This document shows positions 1,058-24,270 of a stretch of 24,270 nucleotides of DNA, piece after piece. How positions within the stretch are numbered: position 1 is the stretch's first letter; every line of letters starts with the position of its first letter. Origin of the DNA: a virus; the IMG/VR virus record IMGVR_UViG_3300007276_000295, positions 1-24,270 of that record; one strand, 5' to 3'. A program made the translations under genes and the position numbers. The notes beneath the pieces are model-generated. The model was given only the letters and a program-made list of their open reading frames with translations, made no database searches and was not told the DNA's origin.

Positions 1058-1072
1058 ACTCGAATTGAACGT

Positions 1073-1077
1073 AGGAG
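1073..1077 (+). promoter_or_regulatory. Ribosome binding site that fixes the tailspike start
   Basis: AGGAG lies eight bases before the ATG at 1086. It supports starting the tailspike there rather than at the in-frame TTG at 1065, which has no such site. Confidence 0.75.
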
Positions 1078-1085
1078 AACTTACT

Positions 1086-3809
1086 ATGGCTGTATCTTTA
1101 ACAAATATCACAGGCTTGGTTTTACTACCTTCAGGTGTAACTCCAACCAATGGTCAAGTAGTTTTTGAATTAACTTCTTGGGATAAAGAAGAAGGTGAAG
1201 CTGTTTTTGCAACTGGACCTTATGTTGTAGATATTGATATCAATGGGGCAATTGATATTGATCTTTTTACAACTACTTCTGGTGATAGATCAGTTGTTTA
1301 TAACATGTATGTGACTTACTTGGATTCTCGCCAGTACAATGAACAGTTTCAACATAAAAAAACAGATTATATTGGACAATTTGCATTGTCTGGTCCCGGT
1401 CCTTTTCGAATTTCTGAATTGAATATTGTTGATGATGTAACTGCTGGTTCATTTAATCTTTATGCAGAAATGTTAGCACTAAATGATGGGGTTTCATCTT
1501 CGATTACATCAGCAACAACTGAAGCTATATCTGCTGCAACTATAGCAGCAGATCTCTCTGCGACTAATGCATCTAATAGTGCAATTTCTGCAACATTAAG
1601 TGAGTCAGCAGCGGCTGCAAGTGCAGCCGAGGCTGCTTTGTATACTAGCCATTGGCTAGATGATGTGGCCGCCGTCCTCACTAATACGTCTCTGACATAT
1701 ACGGCTGGTCAGTCTGGAACTGTTGTAGCTGGCGAAATTGTGCAGACTCGAGCCGACAGGGTTTCCTATGAGGTCGCAGCATCCGGTGCGTCTGACCATC
1801 ACATCGAAACCGCCAATGGCACGCCGGTTAAGCTATATGTCCGTCCCGGTGCTTCCGGTTATAATGTGGTTGCATTTGGTGCATTGGGTGATGGCACAAC
1901 AGACGATACGGCAGCGATTCAGGCGGCGATTGATACCACAGAATTGGTTCTGGTTCCTGAAACGGCGAACTACTACAAGATCACGTCCGCTCTATCCATG
2001 ACATCTGTGGGGCAGAGCATCCAAGGCGGTGGGCGCGGGGCGCAAATCCGGCAGGTAACGTCACTGGCGAATGTTTTGAACGTGAACGCTGACAAATGTC
2101 AGGTAACGGGGCTTCACATATGGCAAAGTGGGGATTTCTCGACCACAACCGATGGCGCGGGCATAAAGGTGACTGCGAATAACTGTATTGTTCGGGAGAA
2201 CATTTTTGAAAACACGCGAGGTTCTGGTGTCGTCCTAACCACGGCGGCAAGTTATAATATTGTCAGCGATAACATTTTTGTTAATTCTACAGCGGTTCCG
2301 GGTGCCCCAACGGCAGAAGTCGGCGTTGATATCGCCGTGCGTAGGAACGCAAGTTATAACGTTATATCAAATAATGTCATGCTTTCTGGAAACGGTACGG
2401 CCATTCTGGTCCAAGCCATTGCCGCCGGGGAAAATTGCCTTGGGAATGTGATCGAAGGCAACACGATCAAAGATTACCTCACGTATGGGATCGTTGCATA
2501 TCGAAACCATCAATTTTCGACCGACGGGGCACTGCCCGCTATCATGAATGTTAGGCGGACAGTTATAGCCAATAATACCATTGAGAATATATCAGGCAAC
2601 GTTCTGGGTGGGACTAGTGCGTTTGATTTTGGGTGTGGGATTTATGTACAAGGTGCAGAGCAAACGGCAGTTACTGGAAATACAATTTATGGTTCTCATT
2701 CGGCAGTGGTAACGTTTACTGAACTTCTATCGCCGGGTGCTATTGGGTTTGCCAACACGGGACGGTTCACGTGTACAGGTAACACCATCACGGATAGTGG
2801 AATGTTCGGGATATACGTTGGTGATGGCAACGAACTGGGCGATCCCATCGGCGGCGGAGTAATTGCCAATAACATTATTACAAATTCCACCGAAGAAGGC
2901 ATTATGCTTTTCAAGTGCGGGCGCAAAAATGTCATCGGGAATTTCATTGATACAGCCAGCGCGTCGGGGATCAATGTCGATGGCGATTCCGCAGCAAGTG
3001 CCGATTATCGGTCAACGATTAATATCTCAGGAAACACGGTGAAAAATATCACGGGCCTAGCTGGGATAGAAATCAGCGAAACCGATGATTGCATTGTTTC
3101 CGGGAACCTGATTGATACCGTTAGCGCCATCGGCATTTCCATGGTGTCAGGTACGACAAATGGCAAAATTTCCGGGAACCTTGTTAGAGCTCATTCTACA
3201 CGCGGCATTTATATTGCAAGCTCGTCAGGCGCTGGCATGTCTGTCACAGGGAACGACATTGTTGGCACAGGATCAAGTACCGAAGGTATCCGGGCTGATG
3301 AGATCACATTTCTTAACGGAAACAAGATTAGCGGTTGTACGAGTGCCTACATAGGCGCGTTTTCCAATGTGCGGAAATTGCAAAGTACTGGTGTAACAGG
3401 AAACGTTGGTGTGGGTGAAGATGACCTGCTGGTTTACACTCTGCCCGGTGGCACATTTCAGGCGACCAATGATGCAATCAAGGTTATATTCTCTGGGTCA
3501 ACGGCGAACAACGCGAACGCCAAGACACTAAAGGTCCACATCGGCAGCGTGACGGCCATCACAATGACAATGACAACAAGTCAGGCAGGGGCATGGCGTG
3601 CTGAGGTTATTTTAGGAAAAGCCGGGGTGAACACACAGCGGGCGACTGCGCAACTTTGGGAACTCGGAGCCACCTCGCAACAGTTGGGATACGCTGCACA
3701 ACTGACAGAAACGGAGGCAAGCGACATCATCATCAAGGTAACGGGTGAGGCGGTCGCGAATAACGATGTGCGATGTTGGGTGATGGACGCAGATTATTTG
3801 CCAGCCTAA
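1086..3809 (+). CDS. Tailspike with pectate-lyase-like right-handed beta helix
   Basis: The protein has 907 residues from the ATG at 1086. Residues 1-130 look like the virion-anchoring domain of phage tail fibres. Residues about 140-190 are an Ala/Ser-rich helical neck of the kind seen in trimeric fibres. The motif NVVAFGALGDGTTDDTAAIQ, near residue 260, is the classic entry to the pectate-lyase-like beta-helix fold. Many NosD/PbH1-like coils follow to about residue 770, such as ISGNTVKNITGLAGIEIS and CIVSGNLIDTVSAIGIS. The last 130 residues form a beta-rich terminal domain, perhaps for trimerisation or binding. Spikes of this fold usually bind or depolymerise capsule or O-antigen, but the substrate cannot be read here. 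Codon use shifts sharply near 1640-1690, from AT-rich (18 of 60 G+C in 1261-1320) to G+C-rich (35 of 60 in 3541-3600), which indicates a chimeric gene. Confidence 0.88.
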   Translation: MAVSLTNITGLVLLPSGVTPTNGQVVFELTSWDKEEGEAVFATGPYVVDIDINGAIDIDLFTTTSGDRSVVYNMYVTYLDSRQYNEQFQHKKTDYIGQFALSGPGPFRISELNIVDDVTAGSFNLYAEMLALNDGVSSSITSATTEAISAATIAADLSATNASNSAISATLSESAAAASAAEAALYTSHWLDDVAAVLTNTSLTYTAGQSGTVVAGEIVQTRADRVSYEVAASGASDHHIETANGTPVKLYVRPGASGYNVVAFGALGDGTTDDTAAIQAAIDTTELVLVPETANYYKITSALSMTSVGQSIQGGGRGAQIRQVTSLANVLNVNADKCQVTGLHIWQSGDFSTTTDGAGIKVTANNCIVRENIFENTRGSGVVLTTAASYNIVSDNIFVNSTAVPGAPTAEVGVDIAVRRNASYNVISNNVMLSGNGTAILVQAIAAGENCLGNVIEGNTIKDYLTYGIVAYRNHQFSTDGALPAIMNVRRTVIANNTIENISGNVLGGTSAFDFGCGIYVQGAEQTAVTGNTIYGSHSAVVTFTELLSPGAIGFANTGRFTCTGNTITDSGMFGIYVGDGNELGDPIGGGVIANNIITNSTEEGIMLFKCGRKNVIGNFIDTASASGINVDGDSAASADYRSTINISGNTVKNITGLAGIEISETDDCIVSGNLIDTVSAIGISMVSGTTNGKISGNLVRAHSTRGIYIASSSGAGMSVTGNDIVGTGSSTEGIRADEITFLNGNKISGCTSAYIGAFSNVRKLQSTGVTGNVGVGEDDLLVYTLPGGTFQATNDAIKVIFSGSTANNANAKTLKVHIGSVTAITMTMTTSQAGAWRAEVILGKAGVNTQRATAQLWELGATSQQLGYAAQLTETEASDIIIKVTGEAVANNDVRCWVMDADYLPA

Positions 3810-14351: not shown

Positions 14352-15083
14352 ATGGAAAAACCAATCACTGATTATACTCCTGAGGCTCTAATGAGTCTTG
14401 TTATGGAAACCGAAGATAAAGATATCTTGCGCGCTGTGGCTGATCATGTCGGTATAAAATATTCTGGAAATACAGGTATTGCTACTCTCAAGGAAAATAT
14501 TCTTGCAGAGATTGCCCTCGACGAAGAAAAAGATTCAGAACTTGATGAAGATGATCCTGTGGTGCAGGCTATGCGTAAAATGCAGTCTGGACTTAAAAAT
14601 CCTGTTATTGAAGAAAAACCCAAGTCGATTTTGGAACATTCTCGTGCCATTCTAGCTGAAATGGATCCCCGTCAACCGAATCTTTCGGAACCAGAGAAAC
14701 GTGCAATTGTACGAGCTAAAGCCATGCGTTTGCATCGTGTTCGAATTACCAATATGGATCCAAACGATTCTGCTGTACCGGGTGCCATTAAAACCGTCTA
14801 TAATAGATATACTGGTAAAGTATCTAAGTTTATTCCTTTTGGTGAAGAAAACGAACTTGGTTATCATGTTCCTGAGATTCTATTGAATGCAATGGCTGCG
14901 GAAACTTATAACCATCGTCGGGAAGTGAAACAAAAAGGTGCAAACTTTGGTGTCAAACGGTATAAAACTGTTTCTATGAAGAAATTTGCTATCGAGTATC
15001 TTACTGCATTAACAGATCAAGAACTTATTGGTTTGGCTCAAGATCAGAAAGCACGAGGGGCTATCGACCAAAGCGGAGAATAA
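14352..15083 (+). CDS. Virion or assembly protein downstream of capsid (N4 gp55-like position)
   Basis: The protein has 243 residues. The N-terminal 50 residues (ILRAVADHVGIKYSGNTGIA, then TLKENILAEI) resemble a HeH/LEM-like helix-extended-helix domain, often found in phage proteins near the capsid and sometimes linked to nucleic-acid binding. An acidic linker follows. The C-terminal 130 residues are beta-rich with basic patches (RLHRVRITNMDPNDSAVPGA, then TGKVSKFIPFGEENELGYHV) and end in a helix. This layout recalls proteins beside capsid genes in several large phages, possibly minor head or completion components. It is the first gene after the strong capsid terminator. Function unknown; the structural role is inferred from synteny. 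Confidence 0.7.
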   Translation: MEKPITDYTPEALMSLVMETEDKDILRAVADHVGIKYSGNTGIATLKENILAEIALDEEKDSELDEDDPVVQAMRKMQSGLKNPVIEEKPKSILEHSRAILAEMDPRQPNLSEPEKRAIVRAKAMRLHRVRITNMDPNDSAVPGAIKTVYNRYTGKVSKFIPFGEENELGYHVPEILLNAMAAETYNHRREVKQKGANFGVKRYKTVSMKKFAIEYLTALTDQELIGLAQDQKARGAIDQSGE

Positions 15084-15123: not shown

Positions 15124-16488
15124 ATGGCTCAAACTTTTGAAAATATCGACAATTCGTCTACTTTGGCGAATGATTTGTTCACCACATTAACAGCGGGGGT
15201 TACTATCCCCGCTGTTCCTAACTTTGATGATGTTAAATTTAATTTTGACCCAACAACTGATGCAACTACTGGTTTGTATGATGATGTTGCTGGAGTCACA
15301 ATTTCAGATGTCACTGAAGGTAATGGTACTATTACTGGTGTTGGTGCATTTGATGTATTCATGCAAGCAATGGATACTCATCTTGAACGAGAATTTAAAG
15401 GTAATCGTATTACTGGTTCTCAATATGCAGAAGCATATACAACCATTGCCAATCAGGTAATTGGACAATCTATTTCCTTCTCTCTCCAAAAAGACCAAGC
15501 TCGCTGGAATGCTGTAACTGCACAAATGCAAGCCCGAATTGCTGAGATTCAAGCAACTGCTGCTTTGGTGGAACTAGAACGAGTGAAGATTGAAACTACT
15601 AATGCGAACTTCCAACTGAACCTGACTGCGGCTCAGTATGCTCTAACTAAGATGCAGATTGCTACAGAAGAAGCATCTCATGATTCAGTAACTGCGGATG
15701 TACTAATTAAACAATACCAGCGAAATTATCAAATGCCTGCTGAATTGGCTATTTCTCAATATGAACGTACGGCTGTGATGCCATCAACAGTAGCTATGAA
15801 TGAGGTTCAGGTAGATCGTATACTTCCTGCACAGGCTTCTATAGCTGAATTTCAGCATCGTATTCTTCAGCCTTTGGAACAAGATATTCAGACACTTCAA
15901 CGTGATCGGATTATCCCAACACAAGCTGATATTTCTGATTTCCAGCTTACTTCTATGCTACCTGTAGAACTGGCACAACAACAACATATTCTGGATGAAC
16001 GTCAACCTGCTGAAACCACTTTAATTCAAGAACAAGTAGAAACTCAGCGTGCAAATACTTTGGATACGCGCAGTGATGGTCTGACTTCTATCCAAGGTGT
16101 TATAGCACTTCAGAAAAGAAATCTGACCTCTGATGCGGATATCAAAGATTTTAATCTCACTAATACTCTACCAACACAAGTTACACTGATTGGTGAACAA
16201 ATCACTTTGACTACGGAACAAAGTGAAGCAGAACGTTCTAAAACTCTGGATGCTCGTTCAGATGGTGCAACGGTTGTTGGTTCTGTTGGAAAACAGAAAG
16301 ACCTGTACACTCAACAGATCGACAGCTTTATTAAGGATGCTCAACACAAGACTGCGAAGATGTATCTTGATGGTTGGATTACCCAGAAAACCCTAGATGA
16401 AGGTCTAACGGCTCCAACTCAATTGACCAATATCGAGATCAATGAAGTTTTGGCTGCTGTTCGGGTTAACAACACGCTGGGAAGTTAA
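15124..16488 (+). CDS. Virion structural protein with seven exact 15-residue proline repeats (N4 gp54-like position)
   Basis: The protein has 454 residues. Residues 1-110 are a mixed head domain. Residues 115-195 look like long helices (QARWNAVTAQMQARIAEIQA). Residues 195-299 form seven tandem 15-residue units with proline at 205, 220, 235, 250, 265, 280 and 295. A second pattern follows: TLDTRSDG (312-319) and TLDARSDG (374-381), with ISDFQLTSMLP (270-280) echoed by IKDFNLTNTLP (340-350). The conserved-looking end includes GKQKDLYTQQIDSF. A rod or tube built from regularly kinked helices is plausible, fitting a tail or ejection-conduit component. AAAGGTG precedes the ATG by seven bases. The next gene starts two bases after the stop. 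No enzyme motif was seen. Confidence 0.8.
   Translation: MAQTFENIDNSSTLANDLFTTLTAGVTIPAVPNFDDVKFNFDPTTDATTGLYDDVAGVTISDVTEGNGTITGVGAFDVFMQAMDTHLEREFKGNRITGSQYAEAYTTIANQVIGQSISFSLQKDQARWNAVTAQMQARIAEIQATAALVELERVKIETTNANFQLNLTAAQYALTKMQIATEEASHDSVTADVLIKQYQRNYQMPAELAISQYERTAVMPSTVAMNEVQVDRILPAQASIAEFQHRILQPLEQDIQTLQRDRIIPTQADISDFQLTSMLPVELAQQQHILDERQPAETTLIQEQVETQRANTLDTRSDGLTSIQGVIALQKRNLTSDADIKDFNLTNTLPTQVTLIGEQITLTTEQSEAERSKTLDARSDGATVVGSVGKQKDLYTQQIDSFIKDAQHKTAKMYLDGWITQKTLDEGLTAPTQLTNIEINEVLAAVRVNNTLGS
15706..16020 (+). repeat. Seven 45-base tandem coding repeats (15 residues each)
   Basis: The units begin at residues 195, 210, 225, 240, 255, 270 and 285 of the encoded protein. Each has proline at its eleventh position, and most have Ile, Leu or Met at position 1 or just before the proline. 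Codons differ strongly between units, so the repeat is old and kept at the protein level. Confidence 0.85.
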
Positions 16489-16490
16489 TT

Positions 16491-19199
16491 ATGGGTATCT
16501 TCTCTGGTTCAAAAAAGATTTATGTTGCTTCAACCTTATATAATTTGGCTGGAGATGAAGCAAATCGACCAAATTTTCTAAAAGGAATAATGTATTCGTC
16601 AATTTTGGCGAATACTTCATCATTGTCTGAAAGTATTACTAATACTTATTTTCAGGGACCGGGTATTAGTCAAAGATCATTCTTTAATTATGCTAAACGA
16701 AATAATCTTGCTGGTTTACCTACTGTAACTACTTCTAATAACCAAGCAGTAGATTCTATTGTAGTAGCTGGAGAAATTACAATTCCTCCTACTCCTGCTG
16801 GTTTAAGTATATCTATTCAATCTTCTTACCTTACAGAAGGAGATCCTGATATCTTTGTTGAAAAATGGGTTTTGGAGAATTATCCAAATCGTGTTTCAGA
16901 AGATTACTTATCTGATTATGACTTAAATACATCAACATTTTCAGTACAATTCCCTAATGGTGATTTTTACTCTTGGGTTGATGTTAATTTTGATTATCAA
17001 TCTCAGTATGTTATTGCTAAATTCTTTTATGTTTTAGAAGACAATACAGAAGCTTTAGAAGAAGGTACTCCAATTTCTGTAAGTGTATTACCTGATCTTA
17101 CTGATTGGATTCAGCAAAGTTCTACTGGAACATTTACTCCAGTTACTTTGCAACGAGAGATGGTAGAGACTAGAGAATATAGTGATTCTACTCCTACAGA
17201 GGTAGATTCTGCTATAGATGCAGATGTAGCCACTAATCTCAATACATCAATTGATGTTTGGGAACAAACTACATGGATAGGTACTGTTGGTTTAGAGACT
17301 GAAGGTCTTTTTGAACGATATACTTTTACTGGTACTGATAGTGTAATTGGAGGTTATTCCAATACTGTTATTATTAATGAAGATATTGGTGGTGGGGTAA
17401 TTAGAACTACAACTCAAGTTACAACCGGAGAACAAGTTAATGAATCATGGATTCAAAAACTTGATACTCAAACAATCTATGAAAATACAATTGTAGGTGG
17501 TGAACAAATCTTTATTTACGAAGTTGGAACTGGAAATGTTAATTTAGATGCTTTTTCTAATGATTTGGATATGACTAATTGGCAAGAATTCTTTCCGTTA
17601 CTACCACTTCGTTTGGATAATAAATCAATTGATGAAGCTCCTTATGATACTAATGGTTTATATGAAGAAACAAAAAAAGCATATAAACGAACTACAAATA
17701 AATCTATTAGTAGTATTCTAGCAGATATTGCTGATAATCCAGATATCGACGATATTGATTATGCTTACATAATATTTGGAGCATCTTTGAATGTAAAAGA
17801 AAATGCTTGTCGAAAATATATCTTCAAATTCTTTGAAGAGATGATTCAATTTCAAAATACTACTAGTAGTACAATGACGGATTTTGCTACACAAGTGGCA
17901 GAATATGAAATTAAACTTCAAGAATTAATAGATTGGGAAAATGAAACTAATATTGAATGGGAATCTAGAGTTGATCCTCCTGTAGTACCCACTATATCTA
18001 CTCCAGAAGCTACGGTTTTGAAGCTTAAATCTGATCATGCTGAACTGGAAGATCATTTTGATATTCGTCTTCAGTGGACTCATATTGAAAAAACTCAAGT
18101 AACTGGTGTATACACTTTTAAAGATATACTTGGAAACACTCGACCCGCTAACCCTGGTGAAACCATGTTCGAAAATGGACCAGATCTTGAGTGGGTAGAA
18201 CGTGAAGGTCTGCAAGATCAAAATGGTCTTTATACAGTTCGAGACACTTTGAACTCAATTCCAACAATAATTATGTATTTTCAGGTTTCAGATACTGAAT
18301 ACAGTAAGTTAACAATTACTGGTTTAATTCATCATAATTATGTTTATGGAGGTAAAAGCGTTAAGATTACCAGTAAAGAAGCACTAGATGATTCTGATAT
18401 TTCTGGTTTCATAATTCCACTTCACATGCCTACAGTAAAAGCTATGGGATTAGTTGATGCTACTCAAATGGCTACAGCTAATGTACATATTCTTTTTAAT
18501 TCATATGAAGTAGTGAAAAAGAAATGGTATGAATCATTTTTGTTTAAGATTCTATTAGTAGTCTTAATTATTGTAGTTGCAGTAATTATTTCACCAGCAA
18601 CTTTTGCCGCAGGAGGTGGTATTCTTGGATCTAATGCCATTATTGGTGCAAGCTTAGGTCTTACTGGAACGGCAGCTATTGTGGCAGGTGTAGCAGCAAA
18701 TTATATTGCTTCTATTGTTGTGTCTCAAATTCTTACTTCTGTGGGTACAGAGCTTTTTGGTGAGCAATGGGGTGCTATTTTTGCAGCAATTGCTAGTTTT
18801 GCTATTGGGGCTGTTGTATCAGGGCTGGATTTATTCAGTACAGAAGGTCTTCTTGGGTTGGGAAATGCTTTAGCCAATGGTTATGCTGGTTGGGTAAAAG
18901 GTGATATCGCAATCAAGTTAGAAGAATTAGAAGAAGCTGAATCAGAATATGAACAACAAATGGATTATATTAACAATCTTATTCAAGGATTGGGCGGAAA
19001 CGATTTGAACTTTAATCCACTTTCTCTTACAAGCAGTGTATATGGCAATGTCTCACGCCGTGGATCTCGTGGTTATATGCCCGAAACCGCAGATGAGTTT
19101 ATCCAACGAACAACTATGACTGGAACTGACATCATTAAGATTACTCAGTCAATGGTTTATGATTTCGTTGATATACAACAAACACTTCCAAGGAATTGA
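16491..19199 (+). CDS. Large virion protein with a C-terminal hydrophobic block (N4 gp53-like position)
   Basis: The protein has 902 residues. Residues 1-560 are beta-rich, with Thr, Ser and acidic residues, like tail or baseplate components. Residues about 640-680 (IIPLHMPTVKAMGLVDATQM, then VHILFNSYEVVKKKWYES) lead into three hydrophobic segments: about 684-705 (KILLVVLIIVVAVIISPA), 715-748 (a Gly/Ala-rich stretch with LGLTGTAAIVAGVAANY) and 760-782 (AIFAAIASFAIGAVVSG). A charged helix follows (KLEELEEAESEYEQQMDYIN). Similar tails occur in large virion proteins encoded beside repeat proteins like the previous gene, so the pair may work together. The hydrophobic block could enter the host membrane during DNA ejection, which is inference. 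The gene is notably AT-rich (19 of 60 G+C in 16921-16980), unlike the capsid gene. Confidence 0.75.
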   Translation: MGIFSGSKKIYVASTLYNLAGDEANRPNFLKGIMYSSILANTSSLSESITNTYFQGPGISQRSFFNYAKRNNLAGLPTVTTSNNQAVDSIVVAGEITIPPTPAGLSISIQSSYLTEGDPDIFVEKWVLENYPNRVSEDYLSDYDLNTSTFSVQFPNGDFYSWVDVNFDYQSQYVIAKFFYVLEDNTEALEEGTPISVSVLPDLTDWIQQSSTGTFTPVTLQREMVETREYSDSTPTEVDSAIDADVATNLNTSIDVWEQTTWIGTVGLETEGLFERYTFTGTDSVIGGYSNTVIINEDIGGGVIRTTTQVTTGEQVNESWIQKLDTQTIYENTIVGGEQIFIYEVGTGNVNLDAFSNDLDMTNWQEFFPLLPLRLDNKSIDEAPYDTNGLYEETKKAYKRTTNKSISSILADIADNPDIDDIDYAYIIFGASLNVKENACRKYIFKFFEEMIQFQNTTSSTMTDFATQVAEYEIKLQELIDWENETNIEWESRVDPPVVPTISTPEATVLKLKSDHAELEDHFDIRLQWTHIEKTQVTGVYTFKDILGNTRPANPGETMFENGPDLEWVEREGLQDQNGLYTVRDTLNSIPTIIMYFQVSDTEYSKLTITGLIHHNYVYGGKSVKITSKEALDDSDISGFIIPLHMPTVKAMGLVDATQMATANVHILFNSYEVVKKKWYESFLFKILLVVLIIVVAVIISPATFAAGGGILGSNAIIGASLGLTGTAAIVAGVAANYIASIVVSQILTSVGTELFGEQWGAIFAAIASFAIGAVVSGLDLFSTEGLLGLGNALANGYAGWVKGDIAIKLEELEEAESEYEQQMDYINNLIQGLGGNDLNFNPLSLTSSVYGNVSRRGSRGYMPETADEFIQRTTMTGTDIIKITQSMVYDFVDIQQTLPRN
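19190..19194 (+). promoter_or_regulatory. Ribosome binding site that fixes the small ejection-protein start
   Basis: AAGGA, inside the end of the preceding gene, lies nine bases before ATG 19204. This favours 19204 over the in-frame upstream start at 19159, which would overlap the previous gene by 41 bases. Confidence 0.65.
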
Positions 19200-19664: not shown

Positions 19665-21566
19665 ATGGCTGATCCTCGTCTTCAGTGGCGTCAACTTAGC
19701 GCCCCAGATCTTAGTGCTGCTTCGGCAGCCCTTGCACGTGCTGGTGATTCTTTTAATCGAGGAATGGAAACTGGTTCAGATATCCTCTCCAAATACCAAT
19801 CAGGTCTAGAATCCAAAGCAGACGCTGAAGTAATGCAAGAATTGGCAGGAATTTCTTCAGAAGAAGAACTCGATACATGGCTGCAAGGTGGGGGTTTAGA
19901 AGGTCGTAGTGTATCTAAAGATATGTTGAATACTTTATATGGTCATCGTGCAGAGTCTCTAGATTTTGCAAACCAACGGTCGATTACATCAGATCGTCTA
20001 GGTCGTCTTGGTTTAGCTCAACAAGCAGGTAATCGTGCAGAAGACCTTCATGGTATTGCGATGGATGATAATCTTTGGCGTCAAGGTCGACGTTCAGAAC
20101 TTGCTGGTTTGTCAGATGAAGTTGTTGCTGCTCGTTCTGAAGGTCAACAACATGGTAGATATGGTGTTTCTACTGAAAGTGCTCAGAGTCAGGTTTATCA
20201 AGGTTTGATTAATCGTGGAATGCCTTCACATATTGCCGAAGGATTCATGATGAATTTTCAAGATGAATCCGGTTTTAATGTTGGAGTTACTGAATCTGTT
20301 CCTAATGTTCATGGTACTCGTGGTAAAGGTCTCTACCAGTTGACTGGCCCTCGTCGAGAAAAATTTGAAACTAAGTATGGAAAAGATGGTTATACCATTG
20401 ATAATCAACTAGATTTTCTGATGGAAGAACTCAATACTACTGAAGCTGGTGCTTGGGATGTGATACGTCAATCCCAAAATGCTGGTGAAGCTGGATCTAA
20501 TATTGTTAATAATTTTCTTCGTCCTGCTGCTGAACATGCTCGTTCACGTACTGCTAAATATGTTGGTGCTAATGGTTTCGATATAAAAGCCGCCACCGCA
20601 GATGTTCGTTCTGGTGCTACTCCTGCTCGTGATATTCTTTCTGCTGCTGTATCAAATTCAGAGTTTCTATCTCTGGAAGATGTGAATTCCATTCTCTCTG
20701 GTTCGGATAAAGCCATTGAAGAAGGTGATACACGATTGGCAGAAGAACTTGCTCAATCTCAACGGGATGCAACTGCTGCATTTATTTCGGCTGCGGTTTC
20801 AAACCCCAATAACATTACTCCTGATCAAGTCGCAAAGGCTGTTGAAGATGCAGCAAATGATTCTGGTGATTTTTCTAGTTCTGAGGCTTTGACTGCACGT
20901 TTTGCTGCTGAAGCTATGATTTCTGAATCTGCATCTCTTCAGACTGAACTTGCTCCTGCTGTAGCAGAGGATGTGGCTTTGAATCGAGCTATTGAAGATA
21001 GTCTAGCCTTTGAACGTCGTCAGTTTGAAGGTGATGATCAGAATCGTGCTCTAGGTGATATTAGTCGGTATTATGACGATCCAACTACTAGTCTCATTAC
21101 TGATCTTGGTTTGGGCAAAGATGGTGAAAATCCTGATGCTGTTCTAGGTCTTTTTGGTGAATCTGGTTTCGATGAAAATAAGATGCGTAATTTGATTAAC
21201 GAATACGCCAATGAATTTGGTGTTGTTCCTGAAGTAGTTGCTGTTGCAATGCGTGATGTATTCAACCGTGATCCTTATGGTCGAAATACTATTCGTTCTC
21301 GTTTTAATAAAGATGCGGTTCAAACTGCGGTGGAACAACTTAGCCCTGAATCACGTCGTGATTATGATCGTGGTAGTAGTCGTCTTCAGATTCAAGAGAC
21401 ACAAGTTCGTCAATTAGAGAATCAACGCAATCGTTTTCGTACTCAATTAGCGAAAATGAAAGAAAATGATCCTCGTCGAAGTGCTCTTGAATCGCAGATT
21501 CAAGCTCTAGATGCTCAAATGGCTGCAATATTTTCTACACAAGTTGCAGAAGAAGCTCGACAGTAG
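19665..21566 (+). CDS. Ejection protein with a tail-lysozyme domain (N4 gp51-like position)
   Basis: The protein has 633 residues. Residues about 1-165 are helical. Residues about 172-300 form a phage tail-lysozyme-like domain: ESAQSQVYQGLINRGMPSHI, then NFQDESGFN with Glu201 as the candidate catalytic acid, GKGLYQLTGPRREKF, and NQLDFLMEEL. These follow the usual order of an N-terminal helix, an E-S-G-F segment, a G-L-x-Q-x-T-G-x-R segment and a Q-L-x-F-x-x-x-E-L helix. The rest is helical, Ala/Ser-rich, ending in a coiled coil (QIQETQVRQLENQRNRFRTQ). It lies directly before the vRNAP gene, where N4 encodes a protein ejected with vRNAP. I infer that it crosses the periplasm and locally opens peptidoglycan. 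AAGGA precedes the start. Confidence 0.8.
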   Translation: MADPRLQWRQLSAPDLSAASAALARAGDSFNRGMETGSDILSKYQSGLESKADAEVMQELAGISSEEELDTWLQGGGLEGRSVSKDMLNTLYGHRAESLDFANQRSITSDRLGRLGLAQQAGNRAEDLHGIAMDDNLWRQGRRSELAGLSDEVVAARSEGQQHGRYGVSTESAQSQVYQGLINRGMPSHIAEGFMMNFQDESGFNVGVTESVPNVHGTRGKGLYQLTGPRREKFETKYGKDGYTIDNQLDFLMEELNTTEAGAWDVIRQSQNAGEAGSNIVNNFLRPAAEHARSRTAKYVGANGFDIKAATADVRSGATPARDILSAAVSNSEFLSLEDVNSILSGSDKAIEEGDTRLAEELAQSQRDATAAFISAAVSNPNNITPDQVAKAVEDAANDSGDFSSSEALTARFAAEAMISESASLQTELAPAVAEDVALNRAIEDSLAFERRQFEGDDQNRALGDISRYYDDPTTSLITDLGLGKDGENPDAVLGLFGESGFDENKMRNLINEYANEFGVVPEVVAVAMRDVFNRDPYGRNTIRSRFNKDAVQTAVEQLSPESRRDYDRGSSRLQIQETQVRQLENQRNRFRTQLAKMKENDPRRSALESQIQALDAQMAAIFSTQVAEEARQ

Positions 21567-21630: not shown

Positions 21631-24270
21631 ATGTCTAATAACACACGCCCTACTGACGATTTTTTGATCGAAGCTCTTGGTAATGTTGGCTTTCAAGATC
21701 GTTATGGAATTGGATTGACAGCAAATGCTGAATTTACTGATGAATTCAGTCAAGATCTTCAAGATATGAATGATCTTGAACTCAGGGCAAAATATGGTGC
21801 AGAGGTTCAACAAAATGCATATCGACTTTCTCAAGGTCAGCATCGTTATCGTGATGTACGTAAATCGGTACGTTCAACTCCTGAAGCACTCTCTGATATG
21901 GCTGTGGACGCAGCTTCTGCTCTATATCGTGGAGTTGGTGATTTGGGTGTTCTTGCTGCGGGATACACAGAAGGTGCTTTTGATGGCGATGATAACACTA
22001 CTGGTGCTAGTCGTGCTGCTGAATTAATGTCAGCCCACCGGGAAATTTCTGCTGGTATTAAACAAGAAAACCTCTCACTGACTCTTCAAGAAAAACAGGC
22101 TTTTGAAGCCATTGAAGGTCAACTTGATAACGAAACTTCTCAGGTGCAATATGAAGCAGACATCGCTGCTGGTGTCCCTGAATATCAAGCTGCCATGGCT
22201 CGTGAGGGTCGTAATGCACTGAATGCTCTTGAACGAAACCTCCGAGATCCTGCTCTTGCTGGTTCAATTATTGCAGATGGTGTTGGTTCTCTAGTAGCTT
22301 CTGCCCCTCTTGCTGGTGTTGGTGGACTTGCTGCTAAGGGTTTAACTGCTGCTGCTACTCGTAATTTAATTGCTCAACGAGTTGCTCAAGCATCTGGTAT
22401 TGCTGCTGCTGCTGCGGTTCCTGAAGTTGCTGGTGTATATGGAGAAGCTGTCACAGATGTGATGAGCCAAGACACAGATCAACTGATGATTTCCTCTATT
22501 ATTATGCAAGGTCTTGTTTCTGAAGGTCTCTCTCCTGAGGAAGCCAAGGTTCAACTTGCAGGTATGGTGGCTGAAACCGCTGCTGTACGTCAGATTATTC
22601 CTTCTCTTGCTCTTGGTTTCATTACCAACAAGTTTGAAGCTATGCCTCTTGGTTCATTTATTAATATAGGTATTACCAAAGGTCTTCTTCAAATTGCTGG
22701 TGAGGGTATTGAAGAAGCTGGTCAAGGTATCTCTGGAACTATAAACCGAAATATTTCTATTGAAGAATATGGTAATATTGGTCGTGGTGTCTTGGAAGGT
22801 GTTGGACAAGAAGCTGCTCTTGGTGCTCTTGCAGGTGTGGGTATGGCAGGTGTATCTGCAATTCCCAGTACTGTACGCGGAACGTTGAATATTCCTAGTA
22901 ATATTGTGGATGCTCTTGTAGCAGAGGGAGAAGATAGTGGACCTTCTTTTGCTGCTCGTAGTGGTCGTATTGGTGCTGCGATTGTTGATGAAATTGTAAC
23001 CACTTCTCGTCCAATTATTGAAGCCGCTACCCAAACTATATCTACTACTGCTGGACGGGTTTCTGAGGCTGTTCAGGGATATGCTGATCGTCCTGACACA
23101 GGTGAAGTATCCTCGTCTGTACAAGCCGTTTTGGATGTCACGAAAACTCTTCATGAAGAAGTAGCAAGTGGTCAGCTTGAAGACACTGTAGAAATTGCTG
23201 TTACTCAACCTGATTCAGATCCAGTTCCAGAAAGTATGAGTGGTATTGCTGGTGAAAATCGTACTCTAATGGAGAATATTACTGGTATTGTTGCAAAAAT
23301 AGGATCAAAAGATTTCAAAGCTACTGAGGCTGATATTGCCTATGCAGCTACTCAATTGAATAAACTCTCAGGGTTGGTAAACCAACTAACGGGAAAATCC
23401 AAAAAACAATTGGGTCGGGTTCTTTCCTCAAAATTGGTAAAAAAGATTCAAGAGGAATCTGCTAAGATTGATCTAAATACGACAGATGTTCAGGATCCTA
23501 TCACTATTTTGAACGTGGCCAAAACCAATCCGACGAATGTGAATCCGGAAACTGCCAATAAGATCCTTGAGGAATCGGATGAACAGATTACTCCTGAAGA
23601 TTTAAAGTACGTTCGTGTGGCATCCAAACTGGCTAATTTGATCAATACGAATGTAGGAACTCAGATTGAAATTCGGAATAATGAGAACATTGGACTTACA
23701 CAGGTAGATCGTTCTACTCGTCCTGTAAAATCGGTAGAGAACACCTCTCGTTCAATCCAAGCTGAAGGTTATGTAGATACTGCTGGTCGTTCTCTTCGTT
23801 CAATCAACGACTTTAATCGTGATATTATCGTGGGTGTTCAATCCCCTAATAAGACAATTGTGAATCAGAAAGGACAAGTTGTTTCGGTTCAGAAAGTAGC
23901 TGAATCTATGCGTAAGTTTGGTCAGCACATGCAGAACAAGGTACAAGCTTTGAATGAATCATTGGCTGATTCTTACACCAATGATCAAGGTACTATCTCT
24001 GGTCGTGCCAAGAAATTCTCTGGTTTACGTGGTGGTGAGGTTTTCGTCCCTGCTAATCGTTGGGAAAAACCTGTACGATATTCTGCTGGTAATTCTTCAA
24101 GTGTTGCATTTGCACAACAGGTTACTGCTGATCAGAATACATTGATTGAATCCTTTAATATCCTTTTGGAAGAATTTCCTGAGGTATTTGAAGGTCTTGA
24201 ACCTTTGGTTCCTATCATTCTTAATCCTCCTGAAACTGCTAGTAAGCAACAGGAAACAACACAAGAACAA
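21631..24270 (+). CDS. N-terminal part of the giant virion RNA polymerase (N4 gp50-like; 3' partial)
   Basis: This frame has no stop before the window end: 880 codons from ATG 21631, preceded by CAGGA. From memory, several segments align with the N4 vRNAP N-terminal domain. They are an Ala/Gly hydrophobic region after residue 210; IAGEGIEEAGQGISGTINRN with EGVGQEAALGALAGVGMAG (N4 has a VEEG...GVGTQAGLGALYGFG pattern); VNPETANKILEES (N4: LNPESVNVVL); and FGQHMQNKVQALNE near residue 766 (N4: FAQHMQNKVGALNE) followed by VAFAQQVTAD. In N4 this approximately 3500-residue enzyme is packaged, injected with the DNA and transcribes early genes from hairpin promoters. The catalytic core (N4 about 998-2103) would lie beyond this window, so polymerase motifs cannot be checked. 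Ala-rich segments may help membrane passage. Confidence 0.9.
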   Translation, partial: MSNNTRPTDDFLIEALGNVGFQDRYGIGLTANAEFTDEFSQDLQDMNDLELRAKYGAEVQQNAYRLSQGQHRYRDVRKSVRSTPEALSDMAVDAASALYRGVGDLGVLAAGYTEGAFDGDDNTTGASRAAELMSAHREISAGIKQENLSLTLQEKQAFEAIEGQLDNETSQVQYEADIAAGVPEYQAAMAREGRNALNALERNLRDPALAGSIIADGVGSLVASAPLAGVGGLAAKGLTAAATRNLIAQRVAQASGIAAAAAVPEVAGVYGEAVTDVMSQDTDQLMISSIIMQGLVSEGLSPEEAKVQLAGMVAETAAVRQIIPSLALGFITNKFEAMPLGSFINIGITKGLLQIAGEGIEEAGQGISGTINRNISIEEYGNIGRGVLEGVGQEAALGALAGVGMAGVSAIPSTVRGTLNIPSNIVDALVAEGEDSGPSFAARSGRIGAAIVDEIVTTSRPIIEAATQTISTTAGRVSEAVQGYADRPDTGEVSSSVQAVLDVTKTLHEEVASGQLEDTVEIAVTQPDSDPVPESMSGIAGENRTLMENITGIVAKIGSKDFKATEADIAYAATQLNKLSGLVNQLTGKSKKQLGRVLSSKLVKKIQEESAKIDLNTTDVQDPITILNVAKTNPTNVNPETANKILEESDEQITPEDLKYVRVASKLANLINTNVGTQIEIRNNENIGLTQVDRSTRPVKSVENTSRSIQAEGYVDTAGRSLRSINDFNRDIIVGVQSPNKTIVNQKGQVVSVQKVAESMRKFGQHMQNKVQALNESLADSYTNDQGTISGRAKKFSGLRGGEVFVPANRWEKPVRYSAGNSSSVAFAQQVTADQNTLIESFNILLEEFPEVFEGLEPLVPIILNPPETASKQQETTQEQ

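Follow-up and report, generated by a model that had tools for sequence, protein, structure and literature searches.

The proline-punctuated units of this protein are likely part of the heptad-built wall helix of a phage tail tube, where each proline would come with exactly one skip residue and the tube would rule its own length. We arrive at this reading from homology to solved tail tubes, from a length law that spans the homologues, and from secondary structure prediction. The window referred to throughout is the whole stretch of DNA analyzed here, 24,270 bases of a virus record that is closest to N4-like roseophages (Sulfitobacter phage EE36phi1, and phages of Dinoroseobacter and Ruegeria).

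Identity of the protein

The open reading frame matches phrog_2050 (E=3.4e-98). With phmmer, its product matches N4 gp54 (E=6.7e-51) and also the tail tubes of Moo19, B2 and DEV; a profile search pairs it with the Moo19 structure 9d80 at E=5e-103, and a Pfam search of the protein gave no significant match. The homology to the solved tubes extends over the N- and C-terminal domains. Given that the N4 gp54 alignment covers only residues 15–200 and 344–453 of the query, the proline array would be an extra helix between two conserved domains. The N4 gene order is also kept, running from the portal through a gp57-like gene labeled as tape measure, the major head protein, the gp55-like gene and the tail tube to the gp53-like plug, and the part from the major head protein onwards agrees with that of the relatives (Table 1). 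gp53 is the tail plug in N4 and DEV (PMC12892993, PMC12633501).

On these sequence grounds, we assign the protein as the tail tube subunit of an N4-like podophage (Schitoviridae, roseophage group). The first-pass annotation was correct in calling it a virion protein, as the homology to solved tail tubes indicates. Of the two outcomes that it had named as refuting its reading, neither applies: there is a known fold, the Schitoviridae tail tube, but the prolines are not coincidental in it, and the period is retained in close homologues.

Table 1. Features of the tail tube gene and of its two neighbors (positions in the window).
Feature	Positions	Strand	Basis or remark
Upstream gene, N4 gp55-like	14352..15083	+	phrog_2130; order as in relatives
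Tail tube protein gene, 454 aa, phrog_2050	15124..16488	+	N4 gp54 / DEV gp75 homologue
Single long helix, residues 98-312 (215 residues), predicted tube wall	15415..16059	+	AlphaFold2 DSSP
Seven 15-residue units (residues 205-309), proline first in each	15736..16050	+	sequence; kept in homologues
Unit starts	15736, 15781, 15826, 15871, 15916, 15961, 16006	+	proline codons
First TLDTRSDG loop, residues 312-319, end of long helix	16057..16080	+	sequence; AlphaFold2 loop, two short strands 313-325
P350, LP unit between the two loop modules	16171..16173	+	sequence
Second TLDARSDG loop, residues 374-381	16243..16266	+	copy aligning with the single N4/Moo19 loop
Conserved C-terminal segment (GKQKDLYTQQ...WITQKTLDEGL), helices 387-423 and 436-449	16282..16485	+	
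Downstream gene, N4 gp53-like by position	16491..19199	+	phrog_2220, E=9e-241; order as in N4, DEV and Moo19

The proline array and the predicted helix

The prolines of the array stand at residues 205, 220, 235, 250, 265, 280 and 295, so that seven prolines delimit six exact intervals of 15 residues and a last unit. When seven prolines were shuffled randomly within a 130-residue segment, the longest equally spaced run was five, and 0 of 200,000 shuffles reached seven. The exact spacing that had been noted at first reading is thus borne out, and so is the divergence of the side chains: apart from the proline the units differ, each with a hydrophobic-hydrophobic-Pro-x-Q/E look. A further 28 distinct homologues (49–77% identical to the query where aligned) share the seven prolines at spacing 15, and six more hold the register without one or two of the seven; the period is evidently kept in close homologues.

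AlphaFold2, supplied with the query protein and 44 relatives, returned a low-confidence monomer (pLDDT 72, pTM 0.23) of which only the secondary structure is usable. According to DSSP, the long helix of Table 1 is unbroken through all seven prolines, in agreement with the earlier suggestion that the array is helical; loops are found at both TLDxRSDG motifs, with helices at 326–373 and 387–423. N4 gp54 modeled in the same way has one helix at 89–220 (132 residues) with no break at its proline, and the difference in helix length between the two proteins (215 versus 132) is the same as that in the anchor distance L defined below (233 versus 150). One long helix between two domains is what is predicted for the query as well. 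Against the solved N4 chain, the N4 model scores E=1e-33 over 298 columns, with a TM of 0.37 and an rmsd of 12.5 Å. Since this model is globally off and the pTM of the query is low, the geometry at the prolines is unreadable from the models, and we rejected a reading of tube geometry from them. In a Foldseek search with the query model, the top hits are the tail tubes of B2 and DEV, although the match is weak (E about 0.07). By analogy with the solved tubes, the repeat helix would be located in the tube wall.

A length law across the homologues

Two conserved anchors enclose the helix, F76 in the motif G.G.FD and R309 in EQxExxRAxT, the latter motif lying before the first TLDxRSDG loop. We define L as the distance between these two anchors and n as the number of helix prolines. 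L spans 58 to 454 residues across the family, and L = 7k + n + 2, i.e. (L−n) mod 7 = 2, in 102 of 111 distinct homologues. In six of the nine exceptions, one or two of the kept sites no longer have their proline, which leaves a spacing of 30 and V or T instead; the remaining ones are L060, with an extra upstream proline, L015, in which the anchor pattern caught the second module, and L140, with a spacing of 63. Counted as distinct (L, n) states, 24 of 29 obey the law (binomial p=3e-16).

Both ends of the array are in register with the anchors. The first proline is 94, 115, 122, 129 or 136 residues from F, which is 3 mod 7 in 106 of 107 cases, the single exception (48 residues) being the extra proline of L060. 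The last proline is 14, 21, 28, 35 or 49 residues from R, which is 0 mod 7 in all 107. Between prolines, the spacings of 15, 22, 29, 36, 50, 64 and 113 are all 7m+1, a form found in 243 of 254 spacings with the Acinetobacter phages counted separately; the off-rule values are 30 (a lost proline, 7 cases), 63 (L140), 81 (the extra upstream proline of L060), and 27 and 28 (the second-module artefact of L015).

The heptad itself was sought in 62 dissimilar proline-free helix stretches by scoring residue similarity at each lag. Similarity peaks only at lags 14, 7, 28 and 21 (z of 29, 27, 21 and 18, respectively), and lag 15 is below chance (z=−10.6). A hydrophobicity periodogram of the query helix by itself has no significant period, hence the heptad claim rests on the family. 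Judged from these sequences, what is really repeated is a pair of heptads with a single skip residue added at the proline (15 = 7+7+1), and relatives have unit sizes of 22, 29 and 36 as well as 15. The 15-residue period proposed at first reading accordingly holds for close homologues, but as the basic unit it gives way to the heptad, with one residue added per proline.

Isolates beyond the first set mostly fit the law, namely Vibrio phi1 (158 aa, L=58), EcP1 (L=100), KpCHEMY26, K481, RHph_N38, 1.025.O, OLIVR2, D283b, S6 and phiEaP8; PJN101 and 1.188.A are off it unless one proline is counted as skipless. For DEV (L=219) and LIT1 (L=191), which lie 28 residues apart, L leaves a remainder of 2 on division by 7; the single helix proline of DEV is without a skip residue. 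As both of these phages make a long tube although the helix has at most one proline, prolines are not a requirement. Among the Acinetobacter phages Presley (homologue L177, 570 aa), nACB1 (homologue L183, 545 aa) and XC38 (homologue L188, 480 aa), there are prolines with a skip (spacings 29, 36 and 71) and without one (28 and 35). Modulo 7, L still comes to the number of skips plus 2, a relation that is not an independent test because the skips are inferred from the spacings.

The wider proposition is that helix length throughout the family is quantized as 7k plus skip prolines plus a constant, so that the tube measures itself and grows by added heptads, while proline-skip sites reverse the supercoil locally and thereby allow growth at constant bore and subunit number. 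To this we give about even chances; if true, it would make tail length readable from sequence.

The helix as proposed tube wall, and tail length

The DEV tube is 12-fold, with outer and inner diameters of 63 and 36 Å, a length of about 330 Å and a subunit of 321 aa (PMC10925440), and a dodecameric tube on the head-to-tail adaptor is known for both DEV and Moo19 (PMC10925440, PMC11654681). By our own arithmetic, the DEV diameters leave about 13 Å of circumference per subunit, hence one lengthwise helix each. A hairpin topology, with both domains at the head end, was rejected, as 330 Å, 321 residues and 63/36 Å fit only one helix per subunit.

Extending the structures of the family to the query, we propose that twelve copies would form a non-contractile tail tube to which each gives one very long wall helix, the 15-residue proline units being an inserted stretch of it. 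A helix built of heptads would allow identical neighbors to pack side by side in register. Each repeat proline would occupy one fixed heptad position and bring exactly one skip residue; if nothing is tolerated but heptad multiples with a further residue for each proline, the length of the tube would change by whole rungs at constant bore. At the proline and its skip, the helix is probably kinked locally or forms a pi-bulge, relaxing or reversing the left-handed heptad supercoil, and this may help the helix to follow, or bend along, the cylinder. The tube is then probably its own ruler. The homology, the prediction of an unbroken helix, the length law and the gain and loss of whole units are shown here, and we infer from the family the place of the repeat in the tube wall of this phage, together with the geometry at the prolines and a tube length proportional to the helix. 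With regard to the rod, ring or tube that the first-pass annotation had offered, the tail tube homology speaks for the tube, and rod and ring find no support.

With 12 helices at a mean radius of 24.75 Å, spacings of 9–10.5 Å correspond to a bend of 18–27 degrees per 15 residues. This is similar to a typical proline kink, although the estimate is consistent arithmetic and not evidence that kinking happens.

Expected tail lengths were scaled from DEV (330 Å at L=219, 1.5 Å per residue) and set against the lengths reported from TEM in papers, among which laboratories, stains and definitions differ. With the expected value given first and the reported one second, KP8 (about 19.5 and 16 nm), CB1 (22.5 and 23.9), phiAxp-3 (22.6 and 20) and LIT1 (28.8 and 30) are within about 4 nm of expectation, and R1 (35–44 and 35) agrees at the low end only. 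EE36phi1/DSS3phi2 (35–44 and 26) and nACB1 (about 58–64 and 7, a strong conflict) disagree.

Such disagreements are what would be seen if the repeat segment were a folded-back or outer layer, a collar or sleeve round a tube of N4 length, whose extra residues do not lengthen the tail. We consider this unlikely. TEM tails indeed do not always grow with protein length, as DSS3phi2 and nACB1 illustrate, and the second loop module of the query could reverse the chain. Nevertheless, the AlphaFold2 helix continues uninterrupted through all seven prolines, in DEV it is the lengthening of this type of helix that yields the 330 Å tube (PMC10925440), and KP8, CB1, phiAxp-3 and LIT1, with R1 at its low end, fit lengthwise growth.

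Length changes on a tree

Because related sequences are not independent, a tree was built so that length changes could be counted. It is a quick tree made from the conserved domains only, with the helix excluded, and the counts are by unit-cost parsimony; a proline lost from a kept site was still scored as present, and the labels of L015 and L060 were corrected by hand. The change in L equals the change in n mod 7 in 50 of 57 inferred changes, whereas it is 0 mod 7 in only 18 of the 57. Thus, the proline count is needed in the law. Six of the seven exceptions belong to a single deep clade with Acinetobacter, Litunavirus, CB1 and D283b, the part of the tree in which anchors and labels are the least certain, and the seventh is L140.

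Several lineages amount to natural experiments. From the seven-proline state, L015 and L062 each lost 75 residues together with 5 prolines, L064 lost 82 with 5, L055 lost 38 with 3, and L065 lost 105 with 7. In L008 (phage RD-1410W1-01), one proline and a single residue were lost together, and L010 gained seven residues with no proline. Units of 29 residues are found in Meara (L079) and L068, and units of 22 or 36 in other lineages; length changes of 7, 14 and 21 residues that do not involve a proline unit also obey the modulo-7 law. Repeat number hence changes by whole units among homologues, which had been named at the outset as the sign of a length ruler.

These changes bear on the idea that the array is the product of tandem duplication only, i.e. 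unselected copying of 15 residues at the DNA level, with the exact spacing reflecting recent copying and not structure. The units are in-frame and tandem, and the 29-residue arrays of L079 and L068 resemble ordinary repeat expansion. However, the units are strongly diverged, yet spacing and prolines are kept in homologues of 49–77% identity, and the modulo-7 law spans different unit sizes as well as the changes outside proline units; this idea is already disfavored, and we regard it as very improbable. Still less credible is a chain of separate 13–14-residue helices (a solenoid or helical hairpin stack) in which the prolines are N-caps only, for while the look of each unit is compatible with a helix start, according to DSSP the helix runs on through every proline of the query and N4 models, V or T takes the place of a lost proline while the register stays intact, and breaks every 15 residues would not demand heptad register over the whole helix.

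Relation to known systems

The solved Schitoviridae tubes, N4 gp54 (9lc0, 9yf4), Moo19 gp71 (9d80), DEV gp75 (9bgm) and B2 gp34 (9d83), match the query significantly in sequence and resemble it in gene position, in the conserved N- and C-terminal domains and in the long helix between them. As to differences, N4 and Moo19 each carry just one LP unit, at P182 in both, and DEV has one helix proline with no skip, against seven units spaced by 15 residues in the query, whose TLDxRSDG module is also duplicated.

The myosin rod has skip residues in its heptad coiled coil, each one extra residue, without loss of the frame. The tail tube skips are alike in that a residue is inserted and the heptad frame kept; unlike those of myosin, they coincide with proline and recur every 15, 22, 29 or 36 residues, in a predicted 12-membered tube rather than a dimer. 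In siphophages and myophages, tail length is set by a tape-measure protein. There, too, the length of one helical protein encodes tail length, but in the tail tube the role of ruler would fall to the subunit, a single copy of which would run the whole length of the tube, with no stacked rings or separate ruler.

In the open-licence literature, we found no skip residues associated with prolines in phage proteins, and no title or abstract on the Schitoviridae tail tube together with heptad, proline or tail length describes the repeat. The tail tube family and its structures are already known. Of the repeat, the skip-proline rule and the length law, the literature searched makes no mention; nor, as far as that search showed, has it been described how podophages with a tube one subunit long set or change tail length. 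The law makes this question testable from sequence alone, predicts at residue level which insertions should be tolerated, and relates subunit lengths between 158 and 570 aa to expected tube lengths of about 9–68 nm. A further use is in designed helical pores, for which it provides a case from nature of the way in which a tube of heptad helices can be lengthened.

Additional observations

The echo that the first-pass annotation saw after the array is real: its LTNTLP (P350) is a further LP unit, and the two TLDxRSDG motifs are a loop module duplicated internally (window 16057–16266; R309 to R371, 62 residues). N4, Moo19 and most relatives have a single copy, and the RPP1-like L010 is without the first. 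In the distal tube, the second loop could form an extra contact ring.

The homologues of Presley, nACB1 and XC38 (480–570 aa; spacings 28/29/35/36) predict tubes of ~50–68 nm, and these phages are described as short-tailed. An identical 454-aa protein (the pair being L002 and L016) is encoded by a second contig, IMGVR_UViG_3300025652_000454, of 26,348 bases.

Elsewhere in the window, the product of 11396–12754 matches phrog_2120, labeled 'tail length tape measure protein'; this label is doubtful because N4-like podophages are without a stacked-ring tail. The protein encoded at 19665–21566 has a Phage_lysozyme2 domain (PF18013, residues 174–299, E=1.7e-20) and stretches matching tape-measure and virion families. 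Since its position corresponds to that of the N4 gp51 ejection protein, it is possibly an ejection protein with a predicted wall-degrading domain. An 880-aa open frame at 21631–24270 runs off the contig end and is, by position, the putative start of a giant virion RNA polymerase. Finally, a 914-aa frame at 1065–3809 begins with TTG, and its matches to tail spikes are confined to the later part of the product (phrog_2234 at 525–775).
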